The translations under genes were made by a program, and so were the position numbers. Below the pieces are notes generated by a model. It had not been told where the DNA came from and did no database searches. It was given only the letters and a program-made list of their open reading frames with translations. Shown in pieces: positions 72 through 8,975 of a stretch of DNA of 64,000 bases. The number at the start of each line of letters is the position of its first letter. Position 1 is the stretch's first letter. This DNA comes from Pannonibacter indicus (GTDB taxonomy: Bacteria; Pseudomonadota; Alphaproteobacteria; Rhizobiales; Stappiaceae), in assembly GCF_001418225.1 (NCBI RefSeq), contig NZ_LIPT01000001.1, positions 434,001-498,000 of the forward strand, written 5' to 3'.

Positions 72-368
72 TCAGGCGGGTTCGCGCACCTGCATCTCGA
101 TGCGCAAGCCCGCTGCTGTTGCCATATTCACCAGCGCATCAAGACCGAACAGATTGATCTTGCCGCGCATCAGGTCAGACACACGCGGCTGCGTCACGCC
201 AAACATCTGCGCGGCCTGCGCCTGATTCAGTCCGGCACGCTCGATATGGCTCTTCAACGCCATCATCAGCATGGAGCGAAGCTTCATGTTCTCCACTTCT
301 TCCGGCGTGTCTTCGATGGCGTCCCAGACACTGGCAAACCGCTCATTGGCAAACTGCGGCTCATTCAT
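72..368 (-). CDS. HigA-like XRE-family antitoxin
   Basis: A 98-residue DNA-binding protein that looks like the antitoxin half of a HigBA-type toxin-antitoxin pair. The helix-turn-helix lies at about residues 45-75 (NQAQAAQMFGVTQPRVSDLM), as in HTH_37-type antitoxins. Such proteins bind their toxin through the acidic N-terminal part and repress their own promoter. Its ATG overlaps the stop of the toxin gene upstream by four bases, the usual toxin-first HigBA order. The reading frame is intact while the toxin frame is broken, so it is probably an orphan antitoxin. A palindrome at 714-731 is the likely operator. Family call is firm; the pairing is inferred from order and overlap. Confidence 0.85.
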   Translation of the reverse strand: MNEPQFANERFASVWDAIEDTPEEVENMKLRSMLMMALKSHIERAGLNQAQAAQMFGVTQPRVSDLMRGKINLFGLDALVNMATAAGLRIEMQVREPA

Positions 369-1196: not shown

Positions 1197-1273
1197 GGCG
1201 GAGTAGCTCAGTTGGTTAGAGCAGCGGAATCATAATCCGCGTGTCGGGGGTTCGAGTCCCTCCTCCGCTACCA
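1197..1273 (+). tRNA. tRNA-Met (CAT), elongator type
   Basis: The 77-base cloverleaf is clear. The 7-bp acceptor stem is GGCGGAG with CTCCGCT (first pair G:U). The D-arm reads AGCTCAGTTGGTTAGAGC. The anticodon stem is 1224-1228 with 1236-1240 around loop ATCATAA, giving anticodon CAT at 1231-1233. The T-arm contains GGTTCGAGTCC and an encoded CCA ends at 1273. The acceptor stem is paired at position 1:72 by G:U, unlike an initiator tRNA, and the sequence resembles alphaproteobacterial elongator tRNA-Met. A lysidine-modified tRNA-Ile2 also has a CAT gene anticodon but is less likely. A T-run follows directly. Confidence 0.95.
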
Positions 1274-1324: not shown

Positions 1325-1510
1325 GTCTGCCTCAAAAGAGGTGAGTGATTTCAACAGGCTATGATTCCTCCGGATTTGCGAGATTCGATGGAGTTCAAAA
1401 TGGCCTGGAGCGAAATCACCCGCCGGCACTATGACCGGCGGACGGCACGCTATGCAAGCGGCATCATAGATCGGGAATGGGCTTTGGTTGAACCTTTTTT
1501 TGCCCATGGC
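1325..1510 (+). mobile_element. IS5-family insertion sequence remnant (5' part of transposase)
   Basis: The frame from ATG 1388 (internal ATG 1400) encodes MAWSEITRRHYDRRTARYAS followed by DREWALVEPFF. This is the conserved N-terminus of IS5-family transposases. The match stops near 1505, where the sequence becomes the antisense of the acetyltransferase toxin gene. Only about 40 codons of a transposase that is normally several hundred residues survive. I cannot place terminal inverted repeats or a target duplication, so both edges are approximate. It looks like an old insertion whose remainder was deleted. Confidence 0.7.
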
Positions 1511-1973
1511 CCGCATAGAGTCTCATCCGCCGTTCGGCGAAGTCAGAGTTGCCATCGTCGAAAACATCGAGCACAACAACATCGAGCCCCATATGCTCCG
1601 CAGCTCGGGCGACGCGCGGCAGTGCATCGGCCAGAAGGTCGCCGCCGTAGCCCTGACCAGCATTGCGCTGGTCCACGCCGGTCATGGACAGAAATGCCGC
1701 CGGAATGGATCCATGCGCGGGCCGGGTGCGGGCGTATTTCGCCGGCAGGTCCTGATAGTCGATCGCATGGACATTGAGCGCATAGAAGCCGATCACCGCG
1801 CCATCCGGGGCAGTCATCACATGGACGCGCAGATTACCGGCATCAGCCAGCTTCTTCGCGGTCTTCTTGAAGGAGTTGTCAACCTGCTCAACACCGCAGG
1901 AGAAGGCCGTCCGGTCGTGCTTGTCCGGATCGAACGGCTCTATGAGGCTTTTCGGCGATTCACCGCCAGTCAC
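1464..1973 (-). pseudogene. TacT-like GNAT acetyltransferase toxin, 3' end replaced by IS remnant
   Basis: The 169-residue frame begins like a TacT-type toxin, a GNAT enzyme that acetylates the amino acid on charged tRNA and stops translation. The start (SLIEPFDPDKHDRTAFSCGV), the beta-strand VIGFYALNVHAIDY and the acetyl-CoA loop region (GVDQRNAGQGYGGDLLADAL) are all present. After RMRLYAG the family consensus (a YGF motif and a final beta-strand) is lost. The last 14 residues (HGQKKVQPKPIPDL) are the antisense of the IS5 transposase start. The final strand shapes the acetyl-CoA and substrate pocket, so loss of activity is likely but inferred. Its ATG overlaps the antitoxin stop by 4 bases. 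Confidence 0.75.
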
Positions 1974-2278
1974 TTCGACAGTACAAGCGACTTATGGCGG
2001 GCAAATGCGTCCTTCAGCTTCGCGGACGGCTGCGGCGGTGGTTCGAGCGCGTCGAAGAAAGCGGCGTGATCGACAGGTTCAAGCAACGTGCGCTCATGCG
2101 CGGCGATTGTCGCAAGCGCGGACTGGTAGGCGGCGCTCATGGTGAACACGCTGCCGTTCACGCCGCTCAGTGCCGCAGCGCGCTGGATGGCCTGCTTGAC
2201 ATGCGGCTTGGCACGAAAGCTCATTCGCTCGCTTGCACGGCCGTCAATGTCCTTCGTTGTGTCATCAAATGCAGGCAT
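1970..2278 (-). CDS. TacA-like DUF1778 antitoxin
   Basis: A 102-residue antitoxin of the DUF1778/TacA family. It has an N-terminal ribbon-helix-helix DNA-binding part (RMSFRAKPHVKQAIQRAAAL) and a C-terminal toxin-wrapping tail (EPVDHAAFFDALEPPPQPSA). I chose ATG 2278 (MPAFDDTT) because family similarity starts there. An upstream in-frame start at 2383 would run through the probable operator at 2314-2330. The gene is intact and lies directly upstream of the truncated acetyltransferase toxin with a 4-base overlap, so it probably now acts alone as a repressor. Confidence 0.85.
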   Translation of the reverse strand: MPAFDDTTKDIDGRASERMSFRAKPHVKQAIQRAAALSGVNGSVFTMSAAYQSALATIAAHERTLLEPVDHAAFFDALEPPPQPSAKLKDAFARHKSLVLSK

Positions 2279-2313
2279 GGCTGCTTTCCAGAGACCTGAA
2301 GCAGCGCGAGATA

Positions 2314-2330
2314 TACGCCTCGACGGCGTA
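2314..2330. promoter_or_regulatory. Inverted repeat upstream of tacA-like gene, candidate operator
   Basis: TACGCC and GGCGTA form a perfect 6-bp inverted repeat around TCGAC, with partial symmetry continuing outward. It sits 36 bases upstream of the antitoxin start, where ribbon-helix-helix antitoxins usually bind. Confidence 0.4.
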
Positions 2331-2411
2331 CATGACAACGAAACGGTCTGGCTCGAATACTGCCGCGGGGCTTCGCCCTGCAAAGCCTCGTAAATCGGGC
2401 GCCTCGGCCCC

Positions 2412-2832: not shown

Positions 2833-4494
2833 CTAGTCCCCGCTCATCGCCCGGATCAGCACATCGCGCAGGCCGTCCATGCCCGGCTCCCGGCCTGCCT
2901 GCGGCGTGGCGGCCGGCATCATGCCGGGGGTGAAGCCATGCTCGAGAAAGCGGGAGACAAGCGCCCGGTCGCGGCTGACCACATGGACGGGCACGGCACG
3001 CGAGGCCCCTTGCCCGGTGATGATCGCCGCCGGCTGGTGGTCGCCCAGAAACACATAGAGCGCCTCGCCGTCCGAGCGGGCGATATAGCTGCCGAGGGTT
3101 TCCAGCGCATAATCGATGGTGCGGATATAGTGATCGCGCACCCGCTCCGGGTCGGCCCAGACCACGGCGGGACTGTCGCCGCTTTCCGCCTGAGCGTTGA
3201 AATTGCTGCCCTCTGCGGCCTTGTCCCAGTCAATGAGGCTTGGCACCGGTGTCCACGGCGCGTGGCTGGAGATAAGGGCGATTTCCGCCATCACCGGCTT
3301 GCCCTCTGCCGCTGCGGGCAGGCGCGCCAGCCTGTCAAAGGCGGAGAGCGTATACTGGTCCGGCATCGTCACCCAGTTAAAGGGCTTGCCGGTGTAGCCA
3401 AGGTCCTCGGCCGCCAGCACCGTGTCATAGCCATAATAGGCAGACTCCGGCCAGTCCATGGTGATGGCGGGCATCACCGCCACGCTCTGCCACCCGGCAT
3501 CGCGGAACAGGCGGTTGAGGCTCGGCCTGCCGCTGCGCATCAGCAGGTCATAGCGCGCCTGACTGTCCACCCACAGGCCCGACAGCAGCGTGCCATGGGC
3601 GAGCCAGCTGAGGCCGCCCACGGTCGGCGCGCGGGTCCAGCCGCTGGCCATGGCATAGCCCGCCTCCTCCAGCTCTGCCTGCACGGCGGCAAGGCGCGGG
3701 CCGGTGAGCGGGGCATAGCGCGGGTCCTCGATGGCGCTGCGGCCATAGGATTCGATGAAGGCCAGCACCACATCCTGCCCCCGGACGCGGGCGAAAAGCT
3801 GCCCGGGCGGCGGCAGGTCCGCAGGCTGCATCAGTTCGGCCTCAAAGGCGCTGAGGTCAGCGATGGAACGGGCCACCACCTTCAGCCGTTCTCCGAGGCT
3901 GGCGCTCTGGAACCCGGCATTGCCGCCGGCGGCGAGCATCGCAAGCCCCCCTGCCAGCAGGATGGCAAAGCCAGCCAGCGCAGGCAGGCGCAAGGGGGCC
4001 CGCATGCGGATGAGGCAGACTGCCGACCAGAAGAACGCCGCCATCGCTCCTGCAAGCACGGCAAAGGCCAGAGCCACAGCCAGCCCAGCGGTGAAGCTGC
4101 CGATGGTGCCGGACAGAAGGTTCCAGCCATCGCCCAGCATCCTGATATCGAGGTAGGGGTTGAACGGCCGCTGAAACGCCATCTGCACGCCGGTGTCGGC
4201 AAGTTTCAGGACCAGCAGAACGAAGACCAGCACAGTGGTCAAGACAGCGGCGCCATAGGCAGACCGCTTCGGCAGCAGCAGCAAGGCAAGCCCCGCCAGC
4301 GGCAGCTCGAAGGGCAGGTGCGCGAAAGCACCCAGCGTGTAGCCGCCCGGCCGGTCCGGCAGGTTGCAGGCCGTCATGATGACCAACAGGAACACGGCCA
4401 GCGCCACAACGGGCCTCAGTGAGCCGCTGCGGGCCAGATCATCTTCCCCTGCCCTCGCCTTCGGGGTCTTGCCGCTCCATCTATGGCCTGTCAT
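2833..4494 (-). CDS. Membrane-anchored sulfatase/phosphotransferase-fold protein
   Basis: A 553-residue protein of the alkaline-phosphatase superfamily, in the group that includes LTA synthase-like and phosphoethanolamine-transferase-like enzymes. About five hydrophobic segments fill residues 25-200; the rest is a periplasmic catalytic domain. Metal- and substrate-site motifs visible are DVVLAFIESYG, a possible nucleophile region TVGGLSWLAHG, SHAPWTP and VFLGDHQP. Such enzymes move a phospho-head-group from a lipid donor or hydrolyse a sulfate or phosphate ester; the substrate cannot be read here. It is divergent from the UPF0104-like gene 73 bases away and lies beside lipid and sugar-modifying genes, suggesting envelope modification. 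Confidence 0.75.
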   Translation of the reverse strand: MTGHRWSGKTPKARAGEDDLARSGSLRPVVALAVFLLVIMTACNLPDRPGGYTLGAFAHLPFELPLAGLALLLLPKRSAYGAAVLTTVLVFVLLVLKLADTGVQMAFQRPFNPYLDIRMLGDGWNLLSGTIGSFTAGLAVALAFAVLAGAMAAFFWSAVCLIRMRAPLRLPALAGFAILLAGGLAMLAAGGNAGFQSASLGERLKVVARSIADLSAFEAELMQPADLPPPGQLFARVRGQDVVLAFIESYGRSAIEDPRYAPLTGPRLAAVQAELEEAGYAMASGWTRAPTVGGLSWLAHGTLLSGLWVDSQARYDLLMRSGRPSLNRLFRDAGWQSVAVMPAITMDWPESAYYGYDTVLAAEDLGYTGKPFNWVTMPDQYTLSAFDRLARLPAAAEGKPVMAEIALISSHAPWTPVPSLIDWDKAAEGSNFNAQAESGDSPAVVWADPERVRDHYIRTIDYALETLGSYIARSDGEALYVFLGDHQPAAIITGQGASRAVPVHVVSRDRALVSRFLEHGFTPGMMPAATPQAGREPGMDGLRDVLIRAMSGD

Positions 4495-4567
4495 TCACTT
4501 TGCCTTCTCTTGTTCCGGAGCCGCCTTTGCCCCCCGCCCCATCCGACCGCCAGCCTGAGACTTCCCC

Positions 4568-5518
4568 TTGCGCAAGGTGAGGCTGCTTGCGCCGCTTGCG
4601 GGTCTGGCGCTTCTGGCTGGCCTCATTGCCCTCCTGGATCCGGCCGGCATCGCGGCCGCCCTCGCCAAAGCGCCAGCCGGCCATCTGCTGGCCGGGTTGC
4701 TGCTCGTCCAGCTTCAGACAGTGTTGTCGGCGGTGCGCTGGCGTTTCACCGCTGCCCGCCTTGGCCATTCCATTCCGCTTGGCGCGGCCATCCGGGAATA
4801 TTACCTCGGCGGCACGCTCAACCTGCTGCTGCCCGGCGGCATGGCGGGGGATGCGGCGCGGATCTACCGGGTGAAGGAGAGCGCAGAGGGCGGCTGGAAA
4901 CAGGCGGCCACGGCCGTGGCGCTGGAGCGGATGTCCGGCCAGCTTGCCTTCGCGCTTCTCATGGGCGGCGGGCTCCTCGCCTGGGCCGTCATTCTGCCAG
5001 CGGAGAGCATCCCCGCCTTGCCGCAGGTTTCCGCGCCCTCCGCACCGCCCCTCGTCTGGCTGGCCGCCGCAGGTCTTGTGCTGGCTGCGCTCGCCCTGCC
5101 ACTGCTCTGCCCGGCCTTGCGCGCCCGCCTGCGCCGTTTTGGGCCGGTGGCTCATCAGGCGCTGCGTGCCGCCTTCTGGAGCAGAGGCGCACTGGCCGTG
5201 CAGGTGGGCCTCAGCCTGCTGATCACCGGAAGCTACCTGCTGACTTTCACGGTCGCGTCCGATGCTGTCGGAGCCAGCCTGCCAGTGTTTGCAGTGGTCA
5301 CCATCATTCCCCTGTGCCTGCTCAGCATGCTGATCCCGGTGGGCGTCGGCGGCTGGGGCACACGGGAGGCTGCGGCAGCAGCCCTTTGGCCGCTGTTCGG
5401 CTTCACCGCAGCGCAAGGGCTGGCGGCGAGCCTGCTGTATGGAATGATATCGCTGGCCGGAGCGGCCTTGCCGGGGCTCGCTCTCCTGGCGCTGGAGCTT
5501 CTGCGCCAGAAACGCTGA
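4568..5518 (+). CDS. UPF0104/lysylphosphatidylglycerol-synthase-like membrane protein
   Basis: A 316-residue integral membrane protein of the family that includes the flippase domain of MprF and the AglD-type proteins. Hydrophobic helices run through the whole chain, and the family signature is visible at about residues 75-105 (YYLGGTLNLLLPGGMAGDAA, RIYRVK) and again as IPVGVGGWGTREAAA. There is no soluble aminoacyltransferase domain, so a transport or flipping role for a lipid is more likely than lipid aminoacylation. The longest frame begins at TTG 4568; GTG 4578 is an alternative frame-independent start that I consider less likely. It is the only rightward gene in this envelope-type group. 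Confidence 0.8.
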   Translation: MRKVRLLAPLAGLALLAGLIALLDPAGIAAALAKAPAGHLLAGLLLVQLQTVLSAVRWRFTAARLGHSIPLGAAIREYYLGGTLNLLLPGGMAGDAARIYRVKESAEGGWKQAATAVALERMSGQLAFALLMGGGLLAWAVILPAESIPALPQVSAPSAPPLVWLAAAGLVLAALALPLLCPALRARLRRFGPVAHQALRAAFWSRGALAVQVGLSLLITGSYLLTFTVASDAVGASLPVFAVVTIIPLCLLSMLIPVGVGGWGTREAAAAALWPLFGFTAAQGLAASLLYGMISLAGAALPGLALLALELLRQKR

Positions 5519-5532
5519 TCCCGCCAGCCGCA

Positions 5533-6285
5533 TCAGGCCGCCAGCCTTGCATAGATATCGCCCGAGGGGCTTTCCGGCGTCAGCCCTGCAATCTCCGCCA
5601 GCACGTCATCCCCTGTCACCCAGTGGCCGCTGACAAAGCGGTGCTGCTCGCCTACCACCCGGTTGAAGCGGTAGGGGCCGAGCTTCTCCAGCAAGGCCAC
5701 CGCCTCGCGTGCCACCTCCGGCAGGGCCGGGATATATTCAAGGGCCACGAGAGGGATAGGCTGCGACAGGCCGCGCAGGATATCGCTTTCCGCACCTTCC
5801 ACGTCGATCTTGCAGAAGGCCGGGCGGCCATAGCGCTCGATCAGCCGGTCCAGCGTCGTCACAGGCAAGCGGATCTCGCTATCCCACACCACGTCGCGGA
5901 AACCTTCCGTTCCGCGCACACCATCGATGAACCGGTCCGAAATGGTCGTCACCGTCGGGTAGCGGCTGGAAATGTGCAGCACAGCCTCCCCCTCCTCAGC
6001 CCCCACAGCCACCGTTTCGAAGCCGCGCAGGCGGTGAGCGAGATGGCGCTCGATCATCCGCGCAAAGACGGGCTGCGGCTCCACCGCCACCACTTCGGCG
6101 CCAAGACCCAGCAGCGTGGCGCTGCGGCTGCCGACATGGGCGCCGATATCAAAGACGAGATCACCGGGGGCAACAAGCCGCCGGTAGAACCGTTTCAGCT
6201 GCCAGCGCCGCCAGGGCTGGCCGTAATAGATGACAAGCGAACGGGCAAGGCCCAGTGCGGCACGGACTGAGATCCTTCCGGTCAA
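5533..6285 (-). CDS. FkbM-family SAM-dependent methyltransferase
   Basis: The SAM-binding motif I is VFDIGAHVG (about residues 44-52), followed by the acidic AVEP at 67-70. The FkbM hallmark KIDVEGAE is at 159-166. FkbM enzymes O-methylate sugars, polyketides or glycolipids; the substrate here is unknown. I chose TTG 6285, which overlaps the stop of the phosphatidyltransferase gene (TTGA), giving 250 residues of normal family length. The longer open frame to 6585 is antisense-like sequence inside the neighbour. The overlap implies translational coupling, so methylation may act on the phospholipid made by the partner. Confidence 0.8.
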   Translation of the reverse strand: MTGRISVRAALGLARSLVIYYGQPWRRWQLKRFYRRLVAPGDLVFDIGAHVGSRSATLLGLGAEVVAVEPQPVFARMIERHLAHRLRGFETVAVGAEEGEAVLHISSRYPTVTTISDRFIDGVRGTEGFRDVVWDSEIRLPVTTLDRLIERYGRPAFCKIDVEGAESDILRGLSQPIPLVALEYIPALPEVAREAVALLEKLGPYRFNRVVGEQHRFVSGHWVTGDDVLAEIAGLTPESPSGDIYARLAA

Positions 6286-7085
6286 AGGCCAGCCTCCGGC
6301 TTGCGCAGCAGATAGGCCGTGTCCACCGCAAAGGACCAGGCGAGCGCCGTTAGCGCCACCGCTGCGATCCAGACAGAAAGCGGCGCCGTGACGAACGGCA
6401 GCAGCAGCACGCAGAGCGCCGCCACCTGCACCACGCAGACCAGCTTGCGCCGGAAAGACGGCGGCAGCGGCGCGGCAAGGCGACGCTGCACATATTGCGC
6501 CAGCACGAAGCCGTAGCGCATCAGCCCGATGAGCAGCACCCAGGGCCCCGCCTTGTCCAGCTGCCAAACGGCAGCCGAAAGACACAGGATCAGGAAGGCA
6601 TCCACTTCCATGTCGAAGCGGGCCCCAAGGTCCGATTCCTGATGGAGACGCCGCGCCAGATAGCCATCCAGCCCGTCCAGAGCCAGCGCCAGGCCCGCGA
6701 GCCCGGCCAGCGTCCAGTGAACCTCAACGCCGGCCCGGTGCATCTCCGCAAACAGCACCACCGCCGCAACAAGGCTGACCATCGCCGCGCGGATGGCCGT
6801 CACCGTGTTGGCCGCACCGAATTTGTGGAACTGGTGATGAACCAGCCCGCGCAGCACCAGACCAAACACCGCCAGCAGCACAGCGGATGCGGCCAGCGGC
6901 ACATCGAGCCCCAGAGACAGGGAGACAGATACCGCCGCATAGACCGCAACAGACAAGGCAAGGACGGCCGCCAGAACGCGAAGAGTATCCAGTCTCAAGG
7001 CGGACTGCTGAGCGGGTGCGCCCCTTGCTCCACCCGCGAACGGTATCGAGGTACCATGCCCTGTTGAGGTTTCATTCGACAGCAT
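6282..7085 (-). CDS. CDP-alcohol phosphatidyltransferase family protein
   Basis: A 267-residue membrane enzyme with the complete CDP-alcohol phosphotransferase motif: D137, D140, G141, A144, R145, G154, D158 and D162 (DGLDGYLARRLHQESDLGAR onward). These residues bind two metal ions and a CDP-linked donor. The family joins a lipid-CDP donor to an alcohol such as glycerol phosphate, serine, choline or inositol. The N-terminal 30 residues are polar and the remainder forms about six hydrophobic segments. It is the first gene of a two-gene unit with the FkbM methyltransferase. It is not obviously PgsA or PssA, so I leave the acceptor open. Confidence 0.8.
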   Translation of the reverse strand: MLSNETSTGHGTSIPFAGGARGAPAQQSALRLDTLRVLAAVLALSVAVYAAVSVSLSLGLDVPLAASAVLLAVFGLVLRGLVHHQFHKFGAANTVTAIRAAMVSLVAAVVLFAEMHRAGVEVHWTLAGLAGLALALDGLDGYLARRLHQESDLGARFDMEVDAFLILCLSAAVWQLDKAGPWVLLIGLMRYGFVLAQYVQRRLAAPLPPSFRRKLVCVVQVAALCVLLLPFVTAPLSVWIAAVALTALAWSFAVDTAYLLRKPEAGL

Positions 7086-7214: not shown

Positions 7215-8975
7215 TCACCCCACAGCCATGATCTGCTGCCAGGCGTCATAGGCGGACAGGACGGTTTCCATCTGGGCGGTGTGGCCGGTGATGAACTCCG
7301 GACCGTAGATGGTTTCGTCCGGGTATTCGGTGATCAGCGTCACCGGCACCGTATGGCGCGCGTCCACCGAGCACAGGCACGGGAAGCCGTTGACCATGCG
7401 GAACCCTGTGCCGCCAGCGTGGGCTTCGTAGAGCGCGATCTGCCGGGCGTTTTCCTCCAGCAGGCCCGGGATGGCCGCGAGATGGCGCGTCACCCGGTCC
7501 ATCAGGTCCTCGGCCTGCCGCTCCCAGCCCTCCAGGTAACGCAGGATCAGGAAGAAGCCTTTCGGCAGCGTCCACATGGCAAAATGCCGGGGCACATAGC
7601 CGGAAAGCGGCCGCGTCCACTCATGTGAGGGATAGCCATGCAGGTTGACGTGCAGTTGCGCACCCGTGCGTGCTTCTGCCTCAATGCGGATGGCCTTCTC
7701 AAGGAGAAGATCCCCGGCGGTTCCGGGCCTGCGGTATTCAAGGTCATCCCCCAGCGCCGTGTAGCGGGCGGCATGATGCATGTGGAAGGGATTGTCCGCA
7801 ATCAGCCGCTGGTGCAGGGCATAGCCATCCGGATTTTCCTGCGGCGACAGGGTGAAATGCGCGCCGTCGCGGGCGGCCAGAACCTGCCCGGCACGCAATG
7901 CGCCCACAACCCCGGTCGTCTCGTTGGCATGCTGGCCGGCGCTGATCATCACCGGCACATCTGTGCCCTTCCGGTAACGGGCCTCAACCTTCCGGCCCGC
8001 GCGTGAAGACGCTGAAAAAGCCTCGCCGCCCACCCGCGCCAGTTCTGCGGAAATCTGCGCAGGGGACAGGGGCGCAGCCGCCTGCGCCAGATCCTGCTCT
8101 GCCGGGCTGTGCACCGTCGCAGGCCGGGTTTCGCTGGAGAGCGGACGCAACTCGATGCGCAGGTGATAGCTCTCCTGCCCGCCAAGCACTTCCGGCACGA
8201 TCTGCCCCGGCTTCAGCCCCCGGTCGCCCTGCGGGCGGCCGGATTTCATCTGGAAGAATTCCAGCAGCGAGAAATAGAGATCCTCGTGCATCGCCTCGGC
8301 AAGGCTCATCACCTCATGCGCATGGGCAAGCGGCAGATCAGCTGCAGGCAGGCGGACGGCAAGGTTCAGCTCCTCGAACCAGGGCTCTGCCACGCCCCAG
8401 TCATGGCTGCTGACGGCATCCAGCGCTTGCGCAAACAGCGCCTCGTAGGGCGTCTCAAAGGGCATGCCCACCGTATCGCCATTCAGCTTCACCCAGCCGC
8501 AGGGGGAGAGGTTCATCTGTCCGGCAAGATCCTGATGCTCCCGGTTGGGGGCAAGGATGGTGACGGTCTGTGTGCTGCCATCGTGATGGGTCAGCACCAG
8601 CTCATACTGCAGGCTGCCATCCGTCCGCGCCGAGAAGGTGAGCGGGCGCGGCGCAATCAGGGCAGCGAGCGGATAGGCCTCCAGCCGGAAGCGGTTTTCC
8701 GGCGCCAGCGGATGCACCGGATAGCGCAGCTCTGCGGCGGCAACGCCGTCCAGATCCACCTCTTCCTGCACCGCATGAACCAGCGGCTTGTAGGCACTGC
8801 GGATGATTGCCGTGATGCCCTTTTCCGCCAGCGCCGCTTCGATGGCGCGGCGGGTCTTCAGATCATCGAAGGTCCAGGCCTCCAGCGCCGTGATGCCGGG
8901 GCGCAGCAGCGCCGAGAGGCGGTCCAGCGTGGAGGAAAAGCCGGCGTCTTTCAGGCAGATGGCCGTGCTGGTCAT
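7215..8975 (-). CDS. M14-type metallocarboxypeptidase-like protein
   Basis: A 586-residue protein with a probable zinc peptidase domain in its C-terminal half. HxxE is visible as H349-E352 (SAGQHANETTG) and a further histidine motif as LHVNLHGYPSHEW at about 440-453. The N-terminal 300 residues lack a fold that I can name. No signal peptide is visible, so it likely acts in the cytoplasm. It is the last gene of the Dpp/Pxp operon, four bases after dppC, which suggests it trims imported peptides. It is much longer than simple carboxypeptidases, and the exact specificity is unknown. Confidence 0.7.
   Translation of the reverse strand: MTSTAICLKDAGFSSTLDRLSALLRPGITALEAWTFDDLKTRRAIEAALAEKGITAIIRSAYKPLVHAVQEEVDLDGVAAAELRYPVHPLAPENRFRLEAYPLAALIAPRPLTFSARTDGSLQYELVLTHHDGSTQTVTILAPNREHQDLAGQMNLSPCGWVKLNGDTVGMPFETPYEALFAQALDAVSSHDWGVAEPWFEELNLAVRLPAADLPLAHAHEVMSLAEAMHEDLYFSLLEFFQMKSGRPQGDRGLKPGQIVPEVLGGQESYHLRIELRPLSSETRPATVHSPAEQDLAQAAAPLSPAQISAELARVGGEAFSASSRAGRKVEARYRKGTDVPVMISAGQHANETTGVVGALRAGQVLAARDGAHFTLSPQENPDGYALHQRLIADNPFHMHHAARYTALGDDLEYRRPGTAGDLLLEKAIRIEAEARTGAQLHVNLHGYPSHEWTRPLSGYVPRHFAMWTLPKGFFLILRYLEGWERQAEDLMDRVTRHLAAIPGLLEENARQIALYEAHAGGTGFRMVNGFPCLCSVDARHTVPVTLITEYPDETIYGPEFITGHTAQMETVLSAYDAWQQIMAVG

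Follow-up and report, generated by a model that had tools for sequence, protein, structure and literature searches.

What do four neighbouring genes of the alphaproteobacterium Pannonibacter indicus make together, if they act together at all? They encode a sulfatase-fold membrane protein (SULF), a flippase-like membrane protein (FLIP), an FkbM-family methyltransferase (FkbM) and a CDP-alcohol phosphatidyltransferase (CDP*), and lie near the start of a 64,000-nucleotide stretch of contig NZ_LIPT01000001.1 (assembly GCF_001418225.1, positions 434,001 to 498,000 of the forward strand; hereafter the window). An original prediction, made from the letters of the window, took them for a possible envelope-lipid module that could build, methylate, move and hand on a novel phospholipid head group. 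Open reading frame (ORF) and profile searches confirmed the presence of all four families at this place, and we found that the four genes form the membrane half of an unnamed gene set, widespread in bacteria, whose grouping is far beyond chance.

Conserved gene neighbourhood of CDP*

CDP* was used to scan bacterial and archaeal genome contigs, resulting in 80 loci that were analysed by ORF clustering and profile searches; about half of these loci are from Streptomyces and not independent. The relatives of CDP* lay mostly within one conserved cluster in which membrane genes are combined with a soluble set. A BchC-like medium-chain dehydrogenase was present in 72 of the 80 loci, a PTPS homologue in 69, a GT4 glycosyltransferase in 68, an S-adenosylmethionine (SAM) methyltransferase in 64, a GTP cyclohydrolase II in 53, a creatininase-type protein in 45, SULF in 28 and a RibD_C reductase in 26. 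The cluster was detected in Pseudomonadota, Actinomycetota, Acidobacteriota and Fidelibacterota, the cases in the last two phyla being metagenome bins for which a binning error is possible. The whole set was found in a genome of the same order (G349, locus L118), arranged as SULF< FLIP> FkbM< CDP*< dehydrogenase> PTPS> GT4> methyltransferase> RibD_C<, and the gene order of the window matches the left part of it precisely.

Co-occurrence across genomes and clades of CDP*

Two genome samples were searched, one of 150 genomes from the order and one of 398 genomes from the phylum, with presence cut-offs in the order sample of E ≤ 1e-25 for CDP* and E ≤ 1e-40 for SULF. CDP* was present in 13 and SULF in 12 of the order genomes, with both in 11 compared to 1.04 expected (p = 6e-14, ignoring kinship), and the two genes were neighbours in 11 of these 11. 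The conserved co-occurrence that the original prediction called for was therefore strongly positive for CDP* and SULF; it was good for FLIP, present in 54 of the 80 loci, and patchy and weak for FkbM, which was present in 10 and is the least conserved of the four window genes. Across the phylum sample CDP* was detected in 23 genomes and PTPS-IV, the PTPS subfamily of the soluble set, in 32, with both in 18 compared to 1.85 expected (p = 2e-18, ignoring kinship).

PTPS-IV was present in 39 of the 150 order genomes, and its association with all CDP* of the order taken as one group reached only p = 0.024. CDP* occurred without PTPS-IV in five genomes of the phylum sample, all from family f60, and in six genomes of the order sample, from families f16 and f22. 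In the CDP* tree the sequences of f16 and f22, together with one from Cereibacter, were separate from a 50-row group holding the PTPS-linked sequences (99% support in the Shimodaira-Hasegawa-like approximate likelihood ratio test, SH-aLRT). Once the tree had shown two clades, f16 and f22 were considered apart, a regrouping made after seeing the data; outside f16, f22 and f60, seven of the seven order-sample genomes with CDP* also had PTPS-IV (p = 5e-5, grouping made after the tree). In a tree of CDP* and SULF combined, f16, f22 and f60 fell together (100%). The membrane-only form at L102, L105, L112 and L113 (f22 and f60) consists of CDP*-SULF-FLIP, GT4 and FkbM lying a few genes further along and the PTPS half being absent, and at L103 and L104 (f16) CDP*-SULF stands alone. 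The GT4 of the membrane-only forms nested within the PTPS-linked GT4, and these forms therefore look derived.

Split gene set in P. indicus

No soluble-half genes neighbour the window genes; in P. indicus they were found on contig C2 (locus L088; Table 1). There the dehydrogenase, PTPS, GT4 and methyltransferase genes follow one another as in an operon, and the GT4 gene overlaps both the methyltransferase gene and the PTPS gene by 4 bp. The set has been cut differently among genomes with both parts retained, in P. indicus as well as in G055, G163 and G419. RibD_C-FkbM-CDP* lie at one site in G163, with SULF-dehydrogenase-PTPS-GT4-methyltransferase about 65 kb off, and G419 has CDP*-SULF-FLIP-GT4 at one site and FkbM-GTP cyclohydrolase II-dehydrogenase-PTPS-methyltransferase-RibD_C at another.

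The two halves of P. indicus also grouped with different organisms. In a tree of the dehydrogenase, PTPS, GT4 and methyltransferase, P. indicus grouped with three members of its family (98%). In the tree of CDP* and SULF it joined Rhizobium sp. RU36D and two Martelella (95%), within a clade of Rhizobium type (100%). Four sampled members of its own family (G041, G081, G116, G146) had PTPS-IV, with CDP* and SULF both absent. The simplest reading would be that the membrane half was acquired by a lineage already having the soluble half, so that the halves look re-paired; the alternative, loss of the membrane half in the relatives, would fit the CDP* and SULF tree less well. Such re-pairing is a stronger argument for a common function than proximity by itself, and we consider it highly probable that both halves contribute to a single pathway or product.

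Table 1. Genes of the set in the window and at locus L088 (contig C2) of the P. indicus genome.
Gene product	Location	Strand	Length (amino acids)	Remarks
SULF, sulfatase-fold (alkaline phosphatase superfamily) membrane protein	Window 2833-4494	-	553	Profile, model and fold match
FLIP, LPG_synthase_TM/UPF0104 flippase-like membrane protein	Window 4568-5518	+	316	Predicted TTG start; PF03706
FkbM-family methyltransferase	Window 5533-6285	-		TTG start; TIGR01444; optional member
CDP*, CDP-alcohol phosphatidyltransferase	Window 6282-7085	-	267	PF01066; distinct clade, tied to PTPS-IV clusters
RibD_C	L088 6621-7541	+		Contig C2
Methyltransferase	L088 7532-8359	-		Contig C2
GT4	L088 8356-9441	-		Contig C2
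PTPS-IV	L088 9438-9839	-		Contig C2; FGPAQ signature
BchC-like dehydrogenase	L088 9844-10878	-		Contig C2

Predicted activities of the membrane proteins

The overlap of the FkbM and CDP* genes claimed in the original prediction was confirmed as 4 bp (TTGA). It was kept in the relatives at L006 (GTGA) and L008 (ATGA), which supports the TTG start of the FkbM gene. The locus is not a single operon because the FLIP gene is on the opposite strand.

CDP* scored 68.7 bits against PF01066 (cut-off 22), identifying it as a member of the superfamily, and is one of four PF01066 proteins in the genome. The motif D-x2-D-G-x2-A-R-x8-G-x3-D-x3-D was complete, with no position varying among the 27 sequences compared. 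Searches of the PDB by sequence with P0001 and P0004 returned no match, and folds were therefore predicted instead. The CDP* model (predicted local distance difference test, pLDDT, of 91) had PgsA (7drj, with bound phosphatidylglycerolphosphate) as its nearest solved fold, with phosphatidylinositol-phosphate (PIP) synthases and others further down, the Foldseek E-values being weak (0.005 at best). The full catalytic motif and this closest fold are likenesses to PgsA and the PIP synthases; unlike them, CDP* has an N-terminal extension with extra transmembrane (TM) helices, forms its own clade with its own gene neighbourhood and scores under the equivalog cut-offs. Identification as PgsA was rejected at 35.1 bits against TIGR00560 (equivalog cut-off 109.1), and the equivalogs for the cardiolipin synthase ClsA, archaetidylinositol-phosphate synthase and PIP synthase were all far below cut-off. 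R190 was invariant and R213 nearly so, and these two residues could hold an acceptor phosphate.

SULF scored 24.7 bits against PF00884, just under the cut-off of 25, and its assignment therefore rests also on the predicted model and the fold match. The model has five N-terminal TM helices followed by a catalytic domain, and matched LtaP, MCR-1, LtaS and GacH, with hydrolases and sulfatases lower in the list. E248, S296, H411, D485 and H486 were invariant in 20 of 20 sequences, so that SULF combines a membrane-anchored catalytic domain with the Glu, Ser/Thr nucleophile, His and Asp-His site of LtaS/EptA-type enzymes. S296 is the first residue of a modelled helix (296-305), and a nucleophile at the start of a helix is characteristic of the alkaline phosphatase superfamily. 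The five TM helices, the catalytic fold and the invariant Glu/Ser/His/Asp/His set are shared with LtaS/LtaP, GacH and EptA/MCR, although identity is just 11-15% over the aligned part. The usual nucleophile of LtaS/EptA/MCR-type enzymes is Thr, compared to Ser in SULF, and the partner CDP* suggests a different head group. We take SULF to be an active head-group phosphotransferase, as a proposal.

FLIP is a member of the UPF0104/LPG_synthase_TM family (PF03706, 146.2 bits; cut-off 33.4). It shares this flippase-type TM domain with MprF, the lysylphosphatidylglycerol synthase/flippase, but at 316 amino acids has no aminoacyl-transferase domain, and identification as MprF was rejected (NF033480, 21 bits compared to 600). 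FkbM belongs to its family with 77 bits against TIGR01444 (cut-off 37.7). The idea that a head group is built, flipped and handed on fits these folds and the intact active sites, with the four genes forming only half of a larger set. Head-group methylation by FkbM is conjectural; the methyltransferase found widely across the clusters is another protein, encoded in the soluble half.

Soluble-half enzymes and the candidate building block

The PTPS protein of P. indicus carries the FGPAQ signature of PTPS-IV, and 24 of 25 aligned sequences had the same signature or one change. It differs from classical PTPS/QueD in having HGA instead of HGH and no Cys at the CxxxHGH-type motif. The sole solved relative in the PDB was 3d7j (S. 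coelicolor SCO6650; E = 2.6e-41).

The GTP cyclohydrolase II of Streptomyces clusters (for example L028 and L078, at about 1-2.5 kb) has Met at the position of Tyr105 in E. coli RibA. This Met was present in every Streptomyces cluster cyclohydrolase in the alignment, each of them adjoining a creatininase-type gene, and the other cluster cyclohydrolases keep Tyr. This Streptomyces pairing amounts to the second step of one enzyme being passed to a partner. An S. coelicolor cyclohydrolase paralogue of this kind, in work by Spoonamore et al. in 2006, reportedly stops at the formylated pyrimidine. PMC3509567 cites work on SCO6655-type cyclohydrolases as showing changed activities, and BrbF is a creatininase-type formamidase that acts on the formylated pyrimidine intermediate (PMC9478397). 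The Met-type cyclohydrolase, the creatininase neighbour and the BrbF precedent together make a diaminopyrimidine the most likely first product of the soluble half, and RibD_C could reduce it to the ribityl compound. The sole PF00925 match in the P. indicus genome lies within a 442-amino-acid open frame, and the sole creatininase-family gene, on contig C7, may encode the riboflavin formamidase.

The cluster resembles the early riboflavin pathway (RibA, BrbF, RibD) in its homologues of cyclohydrolase II, the creatininase-type formamidase and the RibD reductase domain, but lumazine and riboflavin synthases are absent and PTPS-IV, GT4 and membrane genes are found instead. The original idea of an envelope-lipid module is modified to this extent, that the building block probably comes from riboflavin/pterin-type chemistry invisible to a reader of the window.

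A 2017 report on 561 sequences described PTPS-IV (a COG0720 subfamily with the FGPAQ signature) as a neighbour of GTP cyclohydrolase II and RibD_C and left the function unnamed (PMC5445326). The P. indicus soluble half likewise has PTPS-IV beside RibD_C, and its relatives add GTP cyclohydrolase II; in contrast to that report, in which membrane genes go unmentioned, the set described here is tied to a CDP-alcohol transferase, a flippase and a sulfatase, and is split over two contigs. No paper joining the PTPS-IV set to a CDP-alcohol transferase, flippase or sulfatase was found in the open-licence literature, and a description elsewhere is possible. One review mentions, as unpublished, a connection between PTPS-IV and archaeal F420 (PMC5041015); F420 as the product was rejected, with nothing in these neighbourhoods supporting it.

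Proposed pathway and alternative readings

On the observed gene linkage, clade membership and intact active-site residues of CDP* and SULF we set the following mechanism, in which we infer every chemical step, the step order and the product. GTP cyclohydrolase II would open GTP to a riboflavin-type aminopyrimidine, helped by a distinct formamidase in cases of an early-stopping cyclohydrolase; P. indicus would have to rely on its general riboflavin enzymes here. The ribosyl side chain would be reduced to a polyol by RibD_C. The PTPS-IV protein would complete the building block together with the BchC-like dehydrogenase and the methyltransferase, and GT4 would glycosylate it. CDP* would then join the alcohol to CDP-diacylglycerol, generating a new phospholipid head group, FLIP would move the lipid to the outer leaflet, and SULF, like LtaS or EptA/MCR, would pass the phospho-head group to an envelope glycan or lipid. 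None of the enzymes of the set falls outside known superfamilies, and systems that make a head group and then transfer it in the manner of LtaS or EptA are already familiar. We advance the full mechanism, from GTP-derived building block to envelope lipid or glycan decoration, tentatively, as a possibility that falls somewhat short of probable. A phospholipid class whose head group (a glycosylated, methylated ribityl-aminopyrimidine or pterin) derives from GTP through riboflavin/pterin-type chemistry and reaches the envelope by way of a dedicated CDP-alcohol transferase, a flippase and an LtaS-like phosphotransferase is possible but rather doubtful.

Several results weigh against this pathway. 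The cluster-type GTP cyclohydrolase II was not found in the P. indicus genome, and SULF was missing from most Streptomyces clusters among the 80 loci. The membrane half occurred without PTPS-IV in families f16 and f22 and most of f60, so that CDP* and SULF can function in the absence of the soluble half; of the genomes with PTPS-IV, 32 of the 39 in the order sample and 14 of the 32 in the phylum sample lacked CDP*. In several order genomes that lack CDP*, the soluble PTPS-IV operon adjoins OpgH/MdoH, a periplasmic-glucan glucosyltransferase (L094, L096, L097, L098 and L100, with OpgC also in L096).

In the main alternative, CDP* would make an ordinary phosphatidyl-polyol (phosphatidylglycerol-like) and SULF would decorate a periplasmic or surface glycan with it, as OpgB, GacH and LtaS do. 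The soluble half would separately modify the same glycan, so that the halves would share an acceptor and not a metabolite. The membrane-only genomes of f16, f22 and f60 fit this alternative, although these forms look derived from the nesting of their GT4 and PTPS-IV is found in nearly every sampled CDP* genome outside the three families. The nearest solved folds, PgsA for CDP* and the glycerol-phosphate transferases LtaP, LtaS and GacH for SULF, also point to it, but CDP* is far under the PgsA equivalog cut-off (35 compared to 109 bits). With the five OpgH-linked operons and GT4, the gene common to membrane-only and soluble-only forms, also in its favour, we regard this as a serious possibility without expecting it to hold.

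An improbable reading is that the product of the soluble half is a glycoside of a pterin or pyrimidine, serving as cofactor or pigment, which is merely membrane-anchored by CDP* and flipped, with SULF cutting the phosphodiester to free the small molecule and no decoration of the envelope. PTPS-IV, GTP cyclohydrolase II and RibD_C are cofactor-type enzymes and most Streptomyces clusters do without SULF, yet SULF most resembles transferases, with hydrolases and sulfatases ranking lower, and both SULF and FLIP are retained where PTPS-IV is absent. A chance juxtaposition of four unrelated members of large families with no common function, as FLIP on the other strand and the patchy FkbM might suggest, is hardly credible given their conserved adjacency and genome-level co-occurrence in distant lineages, which contradict it for CDP*, SULF and FLIP but do not cover FkbM.

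With a cluster that had been noted without a pathway now tied to a concrete membrane module, the question of what PTPS-IV does becomes directly testable. A nucleobase- or pterin-derived envelope lipid, if real, would define a new class of lipids and show riboflavin-type metabolism branching unexpectedly into the envelope. Such a lipid would occur across several phyla and provide a function for the orphan S. coelicolor protein SCO6650 and its neighbours.

Flanking genes of the locus

Beyond SULF, a TacA1 antitoxin gene (1970-2383, minus strand; PF08681) overlaps by 4 bp the gene for a 169-amino-acid protein (1464-1973, minus strand) that is GNAT toxin-like by sequence, with no Pfam match. Positions 1464-2383 (minus strand) are likely to be a TacA/TacT-type toxin-antitoxin pair beside the membrane module. 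A tRNA-Met gene (1197-1273, plus strand) lies just beyond this pair and G+C falls to 0.59 across the first 2 kb of the window; the two together could mark an integration site.

On the CDP* side, a 586-amino-acid protein (7215-8975, minus strand), with no Pfam match over cut-off, adjoins a peptide-type ABC transporter. Relatives of this protein and of the transporter (62% and 87% identity) were found just beyond SULF in L008, from an Agrobacterium-type bin, and this flank of the window is thus common to a Rhizobium-type copy of the cluster. At the window edge lies an antitoxin-like 98-amino-acid helix-turn-helix protein of the HTH_37 family (72-368, minus strand).

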